A stretch of 64,000 nt of DNA, from the NCBI RefSeq assembly GCF_009727055.1, contig NC_052350.1, positions 34,248,172 through 34,312,171 of the forward strand, written 5' to 3'. The position numbers and the translations under genes are program-made. The stretch's first letter is position 1. Every line of letters starts with the position of its first letter. The notes under the pieces are model-generated. The model made no database searches. It saw only the letters and a program-made list of their open reading frames with translations, and was not told the origin of the DNA. Source of the DNA: Benincasa hispida. Taxonomy: Eukaryota; Streptophyta; Magnoliopsida; Cucurbitales; Cucurbitaceae. Positions 17,390 through 63,082 of this stretch are shown here, piece by piece.

Positions 17390-18860
17390 CATGAGTCCCG
17401 TCTTTTCTAAGGTTCTGAAAACCTTTTCTCTAGTCAGCCCTTTCGTCAAAGGATCTACCAAATTTTCATCAGTTCGTATGTGATCCACTCTAACTGCACC
17501 AGTAGTGAGAAACTCTCTAATAGTACTGTACTTACGATGTATTTGACGTCTCTTTCCGTTGTAGTAACGGTTCTAAACTTTTGCGATTGTTGCAGTACAA
17601 TCGCAATGGATCAATATGGCTGGTGTCAGCTTTTCCTATAAGGAAATCTCTGATAGCAGACTTCTACCCAGCATGCTTCTTCACTAGCTGTCGCTAGTGT
17701 TATCATTTCTGACTCTATCATAGATTGGGCTAAAATAGTTTGTTTCTTGGAATTCGAAGAGACAGGTCCGCCAGCTATATTAAAGATATAGCCACTTGTA
17801 ACCTTTGAATCACCCAAAAGAGTGTTCCAATCAGCATCGTTGAACCCTCCAGGACAGTGGAAAACTTTTGATAATATAATCCTAGGTTTTGGGTTCTCTT
17901 TAAGTATCTCATGACCCTTTCTATAGCATTCCAATGCTCTTTACTAGGTCTGCTTGTAAACTTGCAAAGTAATCCTACAGCATAAGCTATATCAGACCTA
18001 GTGCAGTCGGCAACATATCTAAGACTGCCTATGATGCTCGAATACTCAAATTGATTAACACTGTCACCAGTGTTCTTGAACAACTTGACACTAAGATCAT
18101 AAGGAGTACAGGCTAGTTTACACTCAAAGTAATTATATTTCTTTAGAATCTTTTCTATATAGTGAGATTGATCTAAAGAAATTCCCTTTCAAACCTATTT
18201 ACTTTTATGCCTAAGATTACACTAGCTTCTCCTAAGTCTTTCATGTCGAAGTTCGCACTCAATATTGATTTTACATCATTTATGATGTGCAAGTTCGACC
18301 CAAAGATCAATAAATCATCTACATATAGACACAAGATAGTACAGAGGTTATTATCAAACTTATGATAGATGCATTTGTCACTTTCATTGACCTCGAAACC
18401 TTTAGATAGGATAAGGTTGTCAAATTTTTCATGTCATTGCTTAGGAGCTTGTTTAGTCCATAGAGAGATTTGTCTAATTTACACACGTTGTTTTCTTGAC
18501 CATGGACAACAAAGCCCTCAGGTTGTTCCATGTAAATCTCTTCTTCAAGTTCATCGTTTAGGAAGGTGGTTTTTACATCCATCTGATGTGCTACAAGGTT
18601 ATAAAGGGAAACTAGAGAGAACAGAACACGGATAGAAGTAATTATAGTGACAGGGGAGAAGGTGTCAAAGAAATCTACGTTTTCTCTCTGTCTAAAGTCA
18701 TTTGCTACTAACCTGGCTTTAAATTTGTCGACAGTCCCATTAGGTCTAAGTTTCCTCCTTAAGATCCATTTGCACCCTATTGCCTTACATCCTGGGGGTA
18801 GATGTACTAAGTGCCAAGTCCTATTTGATTCAATGAACACTTGGTTCACTAGATCATAGT
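17390..18860 (-). pseudogene. Ty1/copia reverse transcriptase-RNase H remnant (element K)
   Basis: This is the C-terminal half of a copia polyprotein that copied element RNA into DNA. The RVT_2 domain starts near 18849 (NRTWHLVHLPPGCKAIGCKW, then FKARLVAND). The catalytic YVDD is intact at 18314-18325. The thumb segment follows (SSIIGSLRYVADCTRSDIAY, about 18030). RNase H extends to about 17390 (HIRTDENLVDPLTKGLTR). Several frameshifts and stops interrupt it. A few substitutions alter usual motifs, such as ARLVANDF where ARLVAKGF is common. Upstream of 18860 the integrase, protease and gag are absent, so the element is 5'-truncated. A gypsy fragment on the opposite strand begins at about 18960. 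The 3' UTR, polypurine tract and 3' LTR follow at 17390-16250. Confidence 0.88.
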
Positions 18861-35254: not shown

Positions 35255-36309
35255 CTGTGAAGAAATCTCAAAAAATATAAGGAGAGATTGGGATATAAGT
35301 AAAGGATACAATAAGGATGGTTGGTGAAGAAAATTAGGTACACACAAGTGAACCTAACCTCAATAAATTCAAACAGTAATTACAGTAAACTCATATTAAA
35401 GACAGTCAACTCAAAAGTAAATAAACTAAGTAATGGTCAGGTCAATATTAGTTCGGTGGTTAAGCTAAAAATGGACATAAATTCAACATAATATCTCACA
35501 CATGAAAGGACATAATAATGCAAATTAGAAGGCCTCAAGATTTCAAGAAGCTATTTCATTATGACAAATCTAACTCCAAGCAAAGAAAATAAAAAGTTTC
35601 AATACTTCTAAAATTGAAGTCAATTTTAAATGTACAAAAATTAAATTTATTTGAATATTGAAAACAAATTCAATGGAACGAGGAAAAAGATCCATTCACC
35701 AGAGTTAGAACATAAAACAGATTGAAAGGAAATAAAATTAAAATAGAAATCATATTCAAAAGACAAGGAAAACAGATTGAAAGGAAATTAAAAAAAAATC
35801 CATTCAAAAGATAAGGAAAAATAGAGATGCATGTCTTTTTATATCTAAAAATCGAAAGAAAATAAAATTAAAACAAAAATCATATTCAAACATGAGACTG
35901 TAGATTTTTGGAACAAATCATTATCGGCCTTCAAGGGAAAAATATAGAAAACAGGCCTGTTATTGGCGTGGATTGACCCCTCACCAAGCTCCATTAATAC
36001 GGTCAGGATCCTCTACTAAGAATTCACTCGCCGTCCAATTTTGACTGAAAATTATAAGAAAAACGGCAAGGGAAGGACACGTGCTTTAATATTGAAGTGG
36101 AAAGAGGAAATCTGGATAAAAAAAAGGTATAGAAGATAGTCAGGAAACAAAACAGATATAAGTAGGAGAAGGAAGAACATAGACGGATTTAATACAATTA
36201 GAGACGGATTTAATGATAGAGTAAATATGCAAGTAGCGGAAGAAATCAGAACCAATAAGTACTCTAACTACACATAGTTTGAGTTTAAAAGCATGCATGA
36301 AAACTAGGG
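35255..36309. other. Unassigned DNA, perhaps upstream part of the spliced unit
   Basis: No known protein was recognised. On the minus strand further acceptor-like tracts occur (for example tcttataattttcag near 36045), which may extend the unit at 34856-35254. Purine-rich direct repeats with aaacagattgaaaggaaat occur at about 35717 and 35771. Confidence 0.35.
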
Positions 36310-36430
36310 TTGATAAAAATCCCCACGAGGTCGGGTCCCTACAAGTCCCCACCCCGACCGGTTTGACCGGGGATGGGGGGTCAAACCAGGTCCCAAGTGG
36401 GAGACAGGGCGGGGATGGGAAGGGTATCCC
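36310..36430. other. G/C-rich block ending at the adapter
   Basis: A sharply GC-richer stretch (gaccggtttgaccggggatg, ggcggggatgggaagggtat) resembles the G-run ends of some plant DNA transposons. It stops exactly where the adapter begins at 36431, so its true continuation is unknown. Confidence 0.45.
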
Positions 36431-36468
36431 CTGTCTCTTATACACATCTAGATGTGTATAAGAGACAG
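36431..36468. other. Nextera mate-pair junction adapter left in the assembly
   Basis: Bases 36431-36449 are CTGTCTCTTATACACATCT, the 19-base Tn5 mosaic end. Bases 36450-36468 are its exact reverse complement. This 38-bp palindrome is the circularisation junction adapter of Nextera mate-pair libraries. Translated, it yields the well-known contaminant peptides SYTHLDVYKRQ and CLLYTSRCV. It is a laboratory artefact, and the sequences on its two sides need not be neighbours in the genome. Confidence 0.98.
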
Positions 36469-38253
36469 CAACAATTCCAGCTTCTCTCTACGTATTGGTT
36501 CTTCAAAACACCAGTAGACCACCATAAAGATCTTCTCTACTATCCTCTAACTTGGATTGAGAGGTAGAATCTCTAAATTAGCTCAATTAGGTGAAGGGAG
36601 TGAGGAGGGTTTGAGAGAGGGTATGAAATTCTGAATTTTAGCTTGCATCAATGATTCTCACTTTGAAATTCAGAGTATTTATTCATGTTCATCATGCCGA
36701 CACTTCAACATTCAGTTCATTTGACACATCAAAGAACAAAACAAAGTGGGCTTAGGTGTTATTTTGTGGATAATTCCACTAATTAAGGTGAATTTGGGAT
36801 AATCCCACTTTCACATTTAAAAACATTTTTTTAATTTCTTTTTCATTTTCAATTTAATTTAATTTTCACTGAAATTAAGTTTAATCAAAATTTAAATCTG
36901 AACTTGAATTTCAAAATTGAAAATTTTTTGTTTAATTAACTAATTAAGCAAAGTTAATTAAATAAATCATTTAATATCAAATATTAGATTAATTAAACAC
37001 CTAATTAATACATGAATACTATTCATGTTAATAAATATTTAAATCAATATTTAAACATTTTAATCTCTCTTATTACATTTAATTTCGATATATTAAACGT
37101 TTAATTATATCGAATATAATTGATCAAACCTTAAACTGAACTTGAACACTTCAAATTCAAAACCCTAATTTCGATTTTGAACGTTTCAAAACCGATCAAC
37201 TCACTAATCTAAGATACAATTTTACGAGTTAGTAGAGGGACTTTATGAACCTAGATCATGAGCTCCAACATTTTGAAATTAATTGGCTAAACTCTTTAGA
37301 CCGAATTAATCGATATTCGTTAACTACGGAGATACACCACTATAGCTCGATAGTTGCACTCTCCTCATTGTAAATATATTTCTATCCACTTTAACCATAA
37401 TTAGTAAGTTGAATCTTCACAGGTTGTTCGTATTTACAGCTACGTCAAAATTATCGTTTTACCCCTGTAAATACATCTTGCTCCTTAAGCTCCCACCGAT
37501 CCTCTATTGAACAATCAGTTTATAGTCCAACTATTAAATCATGACTCTCTTGATAATGAGAGGGCAGGGCCCCGTTGTTCAAGACCAAGAATCAGTACTT
37601 AAAAGAACAACCTATCTGCTAACCCTAAATTGGGTAGGAGTGAATTCCATCTTACTGAACTATGTCCCCAAATATCTATACCGTTTTATCCTCAAAATGG
37701 GAGGCTTATTGAGAAATGTTGTTTACTCTCATTTATGCAGATTAAAGGATAATCCTGAATAAATAACATATCATAGTTAGCTCAGAATTAAGATCGAGTT
37801 ACCCTAGGTCATCGAATTTGAAATAGTTAGTTTTAACAGTAAACGGTCATTATAAAAAAAAGTAACTATTTTGAGGTTCGGTCTTATGCAAACATCTTTT
37901 GCATAGGATGCCTCCACTCATATGTCTCCACATGAATGATTTTGGGATCACATCATTCGTATCATTATACAAAGTGGGTCGCATCCAATAGTGTCGCCAG
38001 GATGAGGTACCCAATCTCATCCATATACTTATAGACCATTTTGGTTATAAACTAAAACTTGGTCCACATTTATGTCTCTACATAAAGTTAAAGAATTCAT
38101 ATTATAGCCATGGATTCGTTTATTTGGATTTTTATAAAAAAAAATGCAATAACAATAACATTTTATTGAATGAACAACTCAATAATACTTTTATCGATAA
38201 ATAGAGTATGTTTCCAGTATTTACGAACTGCGAGTTTTAGGACATTCCCAACA
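36469..38253 (-). mobile_element. 3' LTR, family A, of copia copy 1
   Basis: On the minus strand the LTR starts at 38253 with tgttgggaatgtcctaaaac and follows the same landmarks as the solo LTR at 26878. It runs to 36469, where it meets the adapter, so its last roughly 100 bases are missing. A short purine stretch just outside 38253 and the decayed internal region to the right identify it as the 3' LTR. Small open frames inside are not genes. Confidence 0.8.
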
Positions 38254-38389
38254 ATCTCTCACTTAGACTAATACTCCAGTGAGTTACAAATATATACAAA
38301 TATATAATGTACACAATGTTGAGATTAAGAGAGAAAATACGATAAGCTAGGGATCTATATACCCTTTAAATTCTCCCACTTGCCCTAGA

Positions 38390-40630: not shown

Positions 40631-43091
40631 TGTCACACCCCCTCCCAGGCCTTACACCCGTAAGACCGGGAAGGGAACGTGAGAGTGATTATAACCCTTT
40701 CAAGACAATATTTGTACTAACTATTGTTTTCGATATTTATTATAATTACAATGGGTTTACAACATTTACCTATTTATCTATACATGTAACCAATAGGTTT
40801 TCATTATCCCACCTATTAATCTATACCACCATTTAAAAGGTTACAATATTCCACCTATTTATCTATATATATGCCATGCCCCGAGAGTTTACCGAGCTTT
40901 TAGTTGATGGTGGTGGGAGGTGGACTCTTTGTTGAACGCTCCGCTCTGCTACCTGGGGGGGGGGGTTAGGAAAACAATTTGAAAAGTGTGAGCTACTAAG
41001 CCCAGTGAATGGTTATTTTAAAGATGAAAATCATTTCGAAAATATCATTTTGGGAAACCAATCACATGTTGGCACTCACACTGAACTTAAGTGCAATCAA
41101 TGGCATAATCATGCTACTATTGAATTCCAACATCAACACATAGCAATAAACTCTATCATCAAACAATACAATCACCTATGGAAACCTTCCTATGACCCCA
41201 ATTCCCACCAATGTGCACATCGACCATTTTATTTATTCCGCTAGTCATGCTTAGGTATTTTGACCATATTTCCTCGGTCGTCACTGACTATAATTTCCGC
41301 CGACCGAAGCCGACCAATTTTCCCGCCAAGCACCTTTTTTTAGGCATGCTAACCACATCCCGGCATAATCGCAGTTTCCATAGTCACACACAAACAATAT
41401 CATGGCTTAACAGTATTTATGATGCACTTCTCTTTTAACTTAAGTAAATATCACAATGACTCTACTGTAATGCTTGTGAGAATGACGACAAACCCTTAAT
41501 TCATAACAAATAACATCTCAAGCTATGAGGTTCCGTTATACAACTATAATATTCACATTACGTACTGATTTTATCAAAGATACATGCTAACAAAGAAGTA
41601 TAATACCCACATACATCAAACTACTCACTGTACTTTCTGACAACAAAGCACATACTACTCACCAATATACTGACTTTACCAACTATCATGCTAACAAATG
41701 ATGCTCTGGAGTGACATAACATTTACCATTCATACTAACTAGCAAAATTATCATGCTAGCAGGGATGTATTTCTCATGCAACATAATACGCACAACATCT
41801 ATTGAGTTACTAAAAGCAATGTCACACTCACAACATATGTTAACTATAAAGCTATAACACTCACAGTAAGCTTTCCCTCTTAGAAGGAAATTTGGGTAGC
41901 ACCTTCCTCGAGCTTCTCTCTTTTAAACTCACAAAACTACCTTACTCTCTCCACACGATTATTACTACTGGAATTTGTTTGAGAATAAGTTTAATTCTTC
42001 AGCCAAAGCCTCCTATTTATAGTCGTTTTCAACTCTTCTCTATGTGACAACACATCCTACAAGTGGCCTATTTTAAATTACTGGGGTTAACTGAGCTTTT
42101 GAGTTGTCTAATTTTAAGTTTGCCAACCAAAATTACTCCTATGGCATGTAATCTTGGCCGTGCATTTCAATCCCTAAGTTTCTGCATGAAATCTCCTTTT
42201 GCCACCTAAATTGCTTAATTTTTTTACTCAATTATCAAAAATATCAAAGATCGCATTACATTCTTTAAAACACAACATTCTGTCCAAATCTCGCACTCTC
42301 CGCTCTCGCTCTCTCCAACTTTCTCGCTTATTTGGCTCTCGGCAGTGTCGCTCTTTCCATGTTTCTCGCTAAGGATCTCACTTTCCCCAGCCTTCTCGCT
42401 AGCTTGGATCTCAGCAGTGTCACTCTCTCCCATTCTCTCGCTCAGCCAGTCTCGCTCTCTCCCATTCTCTCACTCAGCAGTCTCGCTTTCTCTCCCATTC
42501 TCTTGCTCAACCGATCTCGCTCTCTCCCATCCTCTCGCTCGATCGATCTCGCTCTCTGCCATCCTTTCGCTCAACCAGTGTCGCTCTCGCTCTAATCTCG
42601 CTCTCTCCATTCCCTCCAACTTCCTCCAATCTCGCTAGTGGTCACCCTCACTACTTGCGACACATGGATTCCACTTTCCTTTTAAATTTTTAACTTACCC
42701 CGTACATTGATAATAAATTTTCACCTCCCAATCTCCCAATGAACAGTCTCCATACCAAAGGTATCCAAATTCTTCCCACCTTCAAATTATTAATTTCAAC
42801 CTCTCAAGCCTTCCAATGAACAGTTTCCAAACGAAAAGTTATTTAATTTCCTTTGTCCCTCGAATTTGCTAGCTTCCAACTTCCTTATTAATCTTCCCCG
42901 ATTCTGCTTACTTATTCATAGTTATATATTCTATTGTTGGATAATTATTAATAAATTCCTTAATTTATCAAAATTTTCCTTTAAATTCCACCTAACTTCC
43001 TCTTAATTTAATTTATATTTTTCATTATATTTTCCTTTATTTTCAGTATTTTATTTTTCCCTTCTTTCTAAGTTAGGGTTAGGGTTTTACA
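40631..43091 (-). mobile_element. Solo LTR with perfect 5-bp target duplication (copy i)
   Basis: The plus strand begins tgtcacacccc and ends agggttttaca. The flanks are the same five bases aaaat (40626-40630 and 43092-43096). Length 2461 bp. On the minus strand it begins tgtaaaaccctaaccctaac and ends gggtgtgaca, matching base for base, apart from transitions, the tips of the LTR at 52087-54928. It contains a ctcgctctctccc array (42292-42640). It is inserted in the leader of copia copy 1. The open frames inside (for example 42332-42638) are low-complexity readings of the array. Confidence 0.88.
42292..42640 (-). repeat. ctcgctctctccc / gagcgaga array in solo LTR (i)
   Basis: Imperfect short repeats of gggagagagcgagac with spacers such as tggctgagcg (minus strand). 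The same array occurs on the plus strand at 52603-52934 in the sister LTR, so it belongs to the LTR family. Confidence 0.85.
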
Positions 43092-57107: not shown

Positions 57108-59151
57108 GTCGATGGTGATCAACACGTCCTTCACCTTCCCCTCTGGATGCACCAGAGATCTATCTGCAAGTTGGAGAGTCACAATCGTGGGCTCAATTGC
57201 CCCATATTCAGCTGCTTAAAGATCGACAGAGGCATCAAATTGATGTTGGCTCCAAGGTCACACAAGGCTTGCCCGATGTACAGTCCTCCTATGGAGCAAG
57301 GTATAATAAAGCTCCTAGGATCGCTTATCTTCGGTGGAATGATTGATTTCGAACTCTGTGTTAAAGCCACCGTGGTAAACTTACCAGCTCCCCTCTTCTT
57401 GGTTACCATATCCTTCAGGAACATTGCGTAGGCAGGCATCTCCTCAATTGCTTCACTGAATGGAATATTAATATGTAATTGTTTTAACATAGACAGGAAG
57501 TATTGATACTGTACCTATTTGTTCTTTTCTTTCTTAATCTTTGCGAGAAAGGTGGTAACAACACTCTCATGGTCCCCTTCTCTGTTGGCTTTGAGGTGGA
57601 CGCAACTTCTGGCCCTATTGCTTCTTTTTGTCCTTCTTTTTCTTGTGTCACCAAAATTTCAAGTTCCAACACAATGGGAGCAGTCCGGCTCGGCTCCTTT
57701 CTTTCTCCCTCCACAGTTTTTCCACTCCGCAATGTCACAACCTGGCATTTCTCTTTGCCTAATCCCCCCGGGTTGCGTGGGAGTTCTGTTGAACTTGGCA
57801 GAGCCCCTTGCGGTCTGTTCTTTAGCTCACTTGCAATCTGGCCCATCTGTAATTCTAGAATGCGGATGGACGTAGCCTGCCTTTGAAGCACAGTTTCATT
57901 TTTCTCTATATATTGCTTCAATAGGCTTTTCAGGGAGGAAGATTGCAGTAGTTGCGAGCTACTGACTTGATTGCTTGTCTGACCGTTATTGCACGAGAAG
58001 AATCCACGTGGCCCTTCTTTCTGCGGCACAGTTTGGAAATTCTACTATTGATTCTTCCATGTAAAATTGGGGTGGTTTCTCCACTCGGGGTTGTAGGTAT
58101 TCGAAAATGGAATATTTTTCACTAAGTAAATAGACTGTGGATTCTGTGGACATTCTTCCAGTGCGTGCCCATCACCGCAAGTCGCGTACCTTGCGGTGTT
58201 TTGACTAATTGCGTTGATTTGCCCATTTTGCGGTGTTGGATTGTTGATCGCAATTCCCTTAATTAAGTTCATCATTGCGGTCATCTGATTCTGTAGTGAA
58301 GTAATAGACCCATTACTTGCATCGTTATCCTTGATTCTCAGTCTCTGATCACTCTCTCTCCAATCCTCATGGTTCTTAGAGATGCGATCCAAGATGTTCT
58401 TAGCCTCGTCATACGTTTTGTCAAGCAGACCACCAGTGGTTGCCGCATCGGCAGCGGTCTGCGAAGCGGGATTTAAACCACGATAAAAGATTTCCATCTG
58501 AAAGTAGTCTGGCAATCCGTTGTATGGACAGTCCCTAACCAACCTCTTAAACCTCGCCCAGGCATCGCTGAGCGATTCGTCCATGTCTTGTTCAAAATTA
58601 GTGATTAGTCTCCTTCGTCTAGCATTCTCAGTAGGTGGAAAATATTTCTTCATAAATTTCTCTATGACTTGTTCCCATGAAGTGATCTCTCCCAGCTCGA
58701 GGGAATACGCCCATTTTCTTGCTTGATCACAAAGAGAAAATGGGAACAAAGTTAGTCGAACTTCTTCGCAGAGATGTTCGGGAACACAAAAGTATTGCAG
58801 ATTTCTATAAAAAGCTATGGAGGTGGGCGTGCGGGTCCTCGCCACGCTATCCTCCGAATTGTCCTGCAGTCTGGATCATCTGCAGCATCACCAGTTTCAT
58901 TTCGAATCGGCTTCTGTCAAGGGCAGGCCTCATGATTCCTAGAGAGAAATCATAGAGGTTTAGCGATGCATAGTCCTAATGGGCCTATTGTGATTGTTTG
59001 CCAGCAGGATTGGATTCGCCATGATGTTGTTTTTGTTTGGTGCTCCGTTTCCAGGCTGCTCCGCCATATCTTCTTTGTCTGACTGTTGTTGTTGGCAATC
59101 TCTTAATTTTTGTCTGAACGTCCTCTTAATCTTTGGGTCGTAATTCGCCAA
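57108..59151 (-). pseudogene. Ty3/gypsy gag-protease remnant (G3)
   Basis: The start at 59151 reads MANYDPKIKRTFRQKLRD. The capsid domain is well preserved at 58045-58845 (PFSLCDQARKWAYSLELGEI, FMKKYFPPTENARRRRL, FYRGLNPASQTAADAATTGG). It is followed by a knuckle ATCGDGHALEECPQNP in which the first Cys is lost. A linker with CQVVTLRSGKTVEGE lies at 57484-58029. The protease lies at 57179-57490 (DPRSFIIPCSIGG, ALCDLGANINLMPLSIFKQL). It ends within the protease at 57107 against LTR D2, so RT and integrase are absent. Related to G1 and G2 but a distinct copy, since both G2 and G3 contain protease. Better preserved than G1, with a few frameshifts. Confidence 0.88.
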
Positions 59152-62545: not shown

Positions 62546-63082
62546 AACAATTCCTAGTGAAGTGAAGTCTCTGTCATGAACGACGTTATATGACAAGACT
62601 AATACACTTCGTGGTCCGGTCTTATACAAACTCCTTTGTATAGGACGCCCCCGCTCGCATTTCTCCACATGAATGATTAGGATCAGACCATCTGTANTAG
62701 GACGCCCCCGCTCGCATTTCTCCACATGAATGATTAGGATCAGACCATCTGTAGCATGTCACAACACTTATAACAATCTACAAAGCGGGTCACATCTATA
62801 GTATCACAAGGATAAGGTATCCCTCCTATATCCATATACTATAAACCATTTTGTTCATCACTTAAGGCACGATCCACCTGTATGTCTCCACATACATGCT
62901 TAAGTTACAACGAAAACCAAGGATCTTAGTTTATTGGTTTGTAGTAAAGTAATTAAAACATCTCATGTTTCATAGACAATAGTGAAGAAAATATCATATA
63001 TTATTACATCACAAGTGTTTGTTCAATACAGGTCTTTATAGACTACAGGACCCAATGAGAGTTTAGGGCATCATCCCCAACA
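62546..63082 (-). mobile_element. LTR family B fragment, first ~480 bases
   Basis: On the minus strand it starts at 63082 with tgttggggatgatgccctaa and runs to about 62546 (cactaggaattg), where it meets the copia leader. Its apparent length includes the 56-bp duplicated block around the N at 62697. The rest of the LTR is absent. Confidence 0.75.
62641..62753. other. One-base gap (N) between identical 56-bp blocks
   Basis: Bases 62641-62696 and 62698-62753 are identical, separated by a single N at 62697. Other family-B copies have this block once. This is the signature of two overlapping contigs joined without merging, so 57 bases here are probably an assembly artefact. Confidence 0.93.

Follow-up and report, generated by a model that had tools for sequence, protein, structure and literature searches.

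Position 36,431 of the 64-kb window (the whole stretch of DNA analyzed here, numbered from its first base) lies within a long terminal repeat (LTR) that, read by eye from its terminal TG/CA, spans 36214–38253 on the minus strand. Its outer end (36214–36304) is followed by a GC-rich block (36305–36430), then by 38 bases of Tn5-derived sequence (36431–36468), and then by the remainder of the same LTR (36469–38253), which by eye belongs to a minus-strand element as its 3′ LTR. Elsewhere in the window, fragments of RVT_2 reverse transcriptase and Retrotrans_gag occur on the minus strand at 18319–18849 and 58045–58845, and we take the RVT_2 fragment to be of the Copia type. At 42392–42604, CT-rich 16-mers (TCTCTCCCATTCTCTC with its variants) follow one another as direct repeats. 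The only N of the window, at 62697, sits between two identical 56-base copies; it is a scaffold seam at which overlapping contig ends were left unmerged.

Positions 36431–36449 match the 19-base Tn5 mosaic end CTGTCTCTTATACACATCT exactly on the plus strand, and a pattern search of the window showed that 36450–36468 is its exact reverse complement, i.e. an exact mosaic-end match on the minus strand. A mosaic end joined to its own reverse complement with zero spacer is the layout of the Nextera mate-pair junction adapter, and the resulting 38-mer is its own reverse complement, i.e. palindromic. No second mosaic-end match with up to three mismatches was found in the 64 kb, and 100 dinucleotide shuffles gave a mean of 0.02 matches. 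The peptides SYTHLDVYKRQ and CLLYTSRCV, which the sequence-only reading had predicted as products of the adapter, were both found in translations spanning the site. In the limited literature searched at the title and abstract level, no paper was found for SYTHLDVYKRQ and no title or abstract opening announced such contamination, a result that applies to that literature and not to print at large. PMC7357533 prints the identical 38 bases as a ring adapter for circularising ca. 4 kb fragments. These results confirm that 36431–36468 is a mate-pair junction adapter, a synthetic laboratory leftover and not biology; the artefact is real, of an already known kind, and had been rightly named from the sequence.

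To place the flanks of the adapter, the right flank (36469–36800) was compared with the window's own assembly. It gave at least 40 scored matches, itself included (of 1,057 candidates), and 19 of the other matches (at least 39) were examined. In all 19 copies, the LTR runs on leftwards past the point at which the adapter stands in the window. By BLAST, 36214–36304 matched beside the right-flank match and on the same strand at 18 of the 19 loci (missed in L201, partial in L204), and a local alignment restricted to 400 upstream bases placed it in 19 of 19. Between the two parts, these copies have 34–48 LTR bases (median, 47), which stand in the place of the GC-rich block. At the other end, the alignment stopped at 38253–38255 in five of the 19 copies. 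A direct alignment of this LTR with the window's other LTR showed no clear end. Since 91 bases of the LTR end precede the block and the remainder lies beyond the adapter, the GC-rich block is an insertion within one LTR. The flanks thus stand in the right order within a single interrupted LTR, and the right end of the block has been lost at this site together with ca. 47 LTR bases, the amount being estimated from the other copies. The sequence-only reading had a full LTR tail of ca. 100 bases missing exactly here; 91 bases of it are present at 36214–36304, and only the further 34–48 bases are absent.

The GC-rich block begins exactly at the LTR interruption with TAGGGTTGATAAAAATCCCC, possibly the end of a nested element of hAT-like type. 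A search for the block in 76 host loci (78 loci with 128,490 bases in all, of which the two containing the window site were left out) gave nothing with an E value of 1 or lower. At another locus (L152; contig 1, 3090300–3091350), the adapter was found within a GC-rich stretch that has TAGCGGTGTAC at one boundary and AACACCCCTA at the other. This stretch looks like a hAT-type miniature element, and GC-rich repeats may have been preferred gap sites.

The search for the 38-mer suggested by the sequence-only reading gave 9,991 exact copies in the window's assembly (912,946,352 bases in 1,791 contigs), while a control pattern, the 38-mer reversed but not complemented, gave none. The density is one copy per ca. 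91 kb; therefore, a single copy in a 64-kb window is ordinary in this assembly. Fifty sampled sites yielded 93 distinct outward flanks, so that the copies are many and their flanks unrelated. The recurrence of the same scar about ten thousand times in one assembly indicates a laboratory leftover.

The assembly was compared with the published genome of wax gourd (Benincasa hispida B227), which it probably represents. Contigs 1–12 sum to 859,310,342 bases (94.1% of the assembly), and the total and the anchored length agree with the figures given in PMC6856369: 913 Mb in total and 859 Mb (94.1%) placed on 12 linkage groups. Against this agreement, the 2,197 scaffolds reported there, of which 397 were anchored, lead one to expect ca. 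1,812 records, whereas 1,791 are present. The same source describes contig assembly with ALLPATHS-LG, gap filling with PBJelly, and five mate-pair libraries (2 and 8 kb). It gives library making as "Illumina standard protocol" with no kit name, and the words Nextera, adapter, trimm, and contaminat do not occur in its main text. A later paper, PMC9905507, which presents a chromosome-level wax gourd assembly from 2023 that its abstract ascribes to a hybrid strategy, calls the B227 assembly highly fragmented, with a contig N50 of 68.5 kb.

We then compared the two sides of plant junctions with each other. Direct similarity between the 450-base sides (E below 1e-6) was observed at 22 of 50 sampled junctions and was not found across the adapter at the other 28. 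In a test with pieces of equal size, the sides were similar across 14 of 31 single junctions compared to two of 62 splits made as controls in uninterrupted flank sequence; eight of the 39 plant loci, each with more than one junction, were dropped from this comparison. The window's own site, which is outside the 50, showed no direct similarity across the adapter, and the longest direct match there was 8 bases, not abutting. At L150 (contig 1, 2860750–2862350), four adapters are spaced exactly 167 bases apart; this array is a false tandem repeat containing the adapter. At L173 (contig 1, 6025750–6026950), two adapters lie 128 bases apart, each with a 90-base segment directly adjoining it on either side. 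No N was present in the first 20 plant loci examined. In the 60 bases next to single junctions, the GC content was 0.441, higher than the 0.372 found where these loci end (62 vs 62 stretches; Mann–Whitney p = 3e-5). Part of this excess may come from the preference of Tn5.

The same 38-mer was found in seven stretches of viral contigs and in at least 120 stretches of prokaryote contigs; among the prokaryote matches listed, 17 organisms were named and the titles were mostly those of scaffolds or whole-genome-shotgun records. It was absent from the complete E. coli genomes and the phage records searched. Of the 30-base flanks at 154 sites in these 127 viral and prokaryote loci, 151 on the left and 153 on the right were distinct, and an N lay within 200 bases at 44 sites. 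With nearly all flanks distinct and N frequent nearby, these sites do not form one repeat family and often lie near an assembly gap. A direct repeat of at least 15 bases across the junction was observed at 43 of 143 sites and an inverted repeat at five of 143, after removal of 11 of the 154 sites with a flank shorter than 100 bases. Five plasmid records also carry the 38-mer (NZ_KY978628.1, NZ_MF589339.1, NZ_CP032357.1, NZ_MF918372.1, and NZ_MT039157.1; 14 places, both strands counted). The four of these records that were checked are titled complete sequence. Each of the four was compared with one relative, the best-ranked other record or, for L131, the second-ranked one. The flanks were at most 50 bases apart on the relative in two cases (L128 and L131) and were not side by side in the other two (L129 and L130), where insertion sequences are annotated nearby.

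These comparisons bear on the possibility that the site is a chimera, in which one circularised fragment supplied both flanks from its two ends, kilobases apart in the plant genome, and a single junction read fused them. A junction read is physically exactly such a fusion, the flanks at the window site are without overlap, and the bases adjoining the adapter were not side by side on the relative in two of the four plasmids. However, both flanks in the window belong to one LTR and keep its order and orientation, 34–48 bases lie between the corresponding parts in 19 other copies, and in the other two plasmids no more than 50 bases separated the flanks on the relative. A chimeric join of distant sequences was therefore rejected, because both flanks lie in one LTR, and we consider it very unlikely. 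The suspicion that the GC-rich block and the LTR had been joined artificially was thus borne out in that the closure is artificial and sequence was lost; it did not hold in that the two sides come from one LTR copy and not from unrelated places. The doubled overlaps, the lost sequence, and the plasmid pattern together fit a false gap closure via a palindromic read end.

Tn5 has a target preference of GNTYWRANC. To learn whether the DNA beside the adapters carries this preference, we determined the flank composition of 50 plant sites (39 loci), which were the first listed on contig 1 and not a random sample, and of 147 bacterial sites (120 loci); duplicates and flanks that contained N or adapter or were shorter than 60 bases were left out. 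Reading outward from the adapter, bases 1 (G), 2 (T), 4 (C/T), 5 (A/T), 6 (A/G), 8 (A), and 9 (C) were biased, and the pattern was symmetric over 9 bases in both plant and bacterial sites. Positions 1, 4, 5, 6, and 9 fit the consensus. In contrast, positions 2 (T) and 8 (A) were biased where GNTYWRANC is free, and positions 3 and 7 were little biased where it asks for T and A. The plant flanks also showed some bias at positions 11–13.

Flanks were then scored against the consensus, with duplicates and flanks that contained N or adapter or were shorter than 200 bases left out. The stretches touching the adapter scored 3.79 in 90 plant flanks compared to 2.57 (sd 0.13, highest 2.91) at offsets 20–109 (z 9.1), and 3.64 in 216 bacterial flanks compared to 2.55 (sd 0.08, highest 2.74) at the same offsets (z 13.2). 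Near the adapter, the next best plant offset scored 3.04. The window's own two flanks match the consensus at four of seven positions each, which alone decides nothing. As populations, however, the 90 plant and 216 bacterial flanks show the target preference of Tn5, with departures at positions 2, 3, 7, and 8. The symmetric 9-base Tn5-like signature at the sampled sites indicates that a transposase cut the DNA.

This signature also bears on how the adapter was attached. A ring adapter of identical sequence may have been ligated to sheared DNA with no tagmentation, as in the procedure given in PMC7357533. That use of the identical 38-mer speaks for such an origin, and so do the departures of the flank bias from the Tn5 consensus at positions 2, 3, 7, and 8. 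However, sheared ends should show no bias, whereas the bias observed here is symmetric over nine positions and stands out in plants (z 9.1) and bacteria (z 13.2) alike. The Tn5-like signature favours tagmentation, and ligation to sheared DNA was rejected as a still more improbable origin.

A natural or transgenic insertion of a Tn5-type element in the plant, in whose favour it can be said that the 19-mer works as an end for Tn5 transposase, has a probability close to nil: compared with the natural ends, the mosaic end has three differences from the outside end and four from the inside end, the two ends are adjacent with nothing between them, the 8-base match across the site does not abut the adapter, the copies are about ten thousand with differing flanks among those sampled, and neither a target duplication nor a transposon body was found, so that insertion in vivo was rejected.

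We conclude that the 38 bases are almost certainly a leftover Nextera-type mate-pair junction adapter that remains in the presumed B227 assembly at a falsely closed gap inside one LTR. During library preparation, Tn5 transposase would have put the mosaic end on both ends of a kilobase-sized fragment, and circularisation would have joined the two mosaic ends into the palindrome. Mate-pair reads probably entered the assembly or the gap patching untrimmed. Reads leaving the left contig end and reads entering the right contig would then both have ended in the adapter, and because the 38-mer equals its own reverse complement, these read ends could have overlapped at the adapter and closed the gap within the LTR falsely. 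Where the contig ends overlapped, such a closure would have doubled the overlap; where they did not meet, it would have lost sequence, as in the window.

For users of the B227 reference, it is probable that a large fraction of its former gaps are now marked by some ten thousand palindromic scars. Nearly half of these scars would have added false duplications, including some tandem arrays with the adapter, many others would have removed sequence, and analyses of repeats, gene duplications, and structural variants would be biased at predictable places. The finding is useful for curation, since one search with the 38-mer exposes some ten thousand questionable joins in an assembly whose figures agree with those of a published crop reference, and the same search can be applied to any mate-pair assembly. 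Caution is needed with gene models or tandem-repeat calls that span adapter scars, while a scar need not imply that the order of its flanks is wrong. The wider use of the finding lies in the number of scars in the assembly.

The site can be compared with three known systems. As in a plant LTR retrotransposon whose LTR carries a nested insertion, the adapter flanks are parts of one LTR split by the GC-rich block; the site differs in that the nested block lacks its right end here and ca. 47 LTR bases are absent from the assembly. Leftovers in prokaryote assemblies (such as Enterococcus sp. 10A9_DIV0425, Collinsella ihumii GD8, and Scytonema tolypothrichoides VB-61278) share the same 38-mer and have differing flanks; the plant assembly has 9,991 copies. 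The Nextera mate-pair junction (circularisation) adapter, which is expected to be trimmed before assembly, showed no difference from the window site: the 38 bases are identical, and the flanks of the sampled sites likewise carry a Tn5-like target signature.
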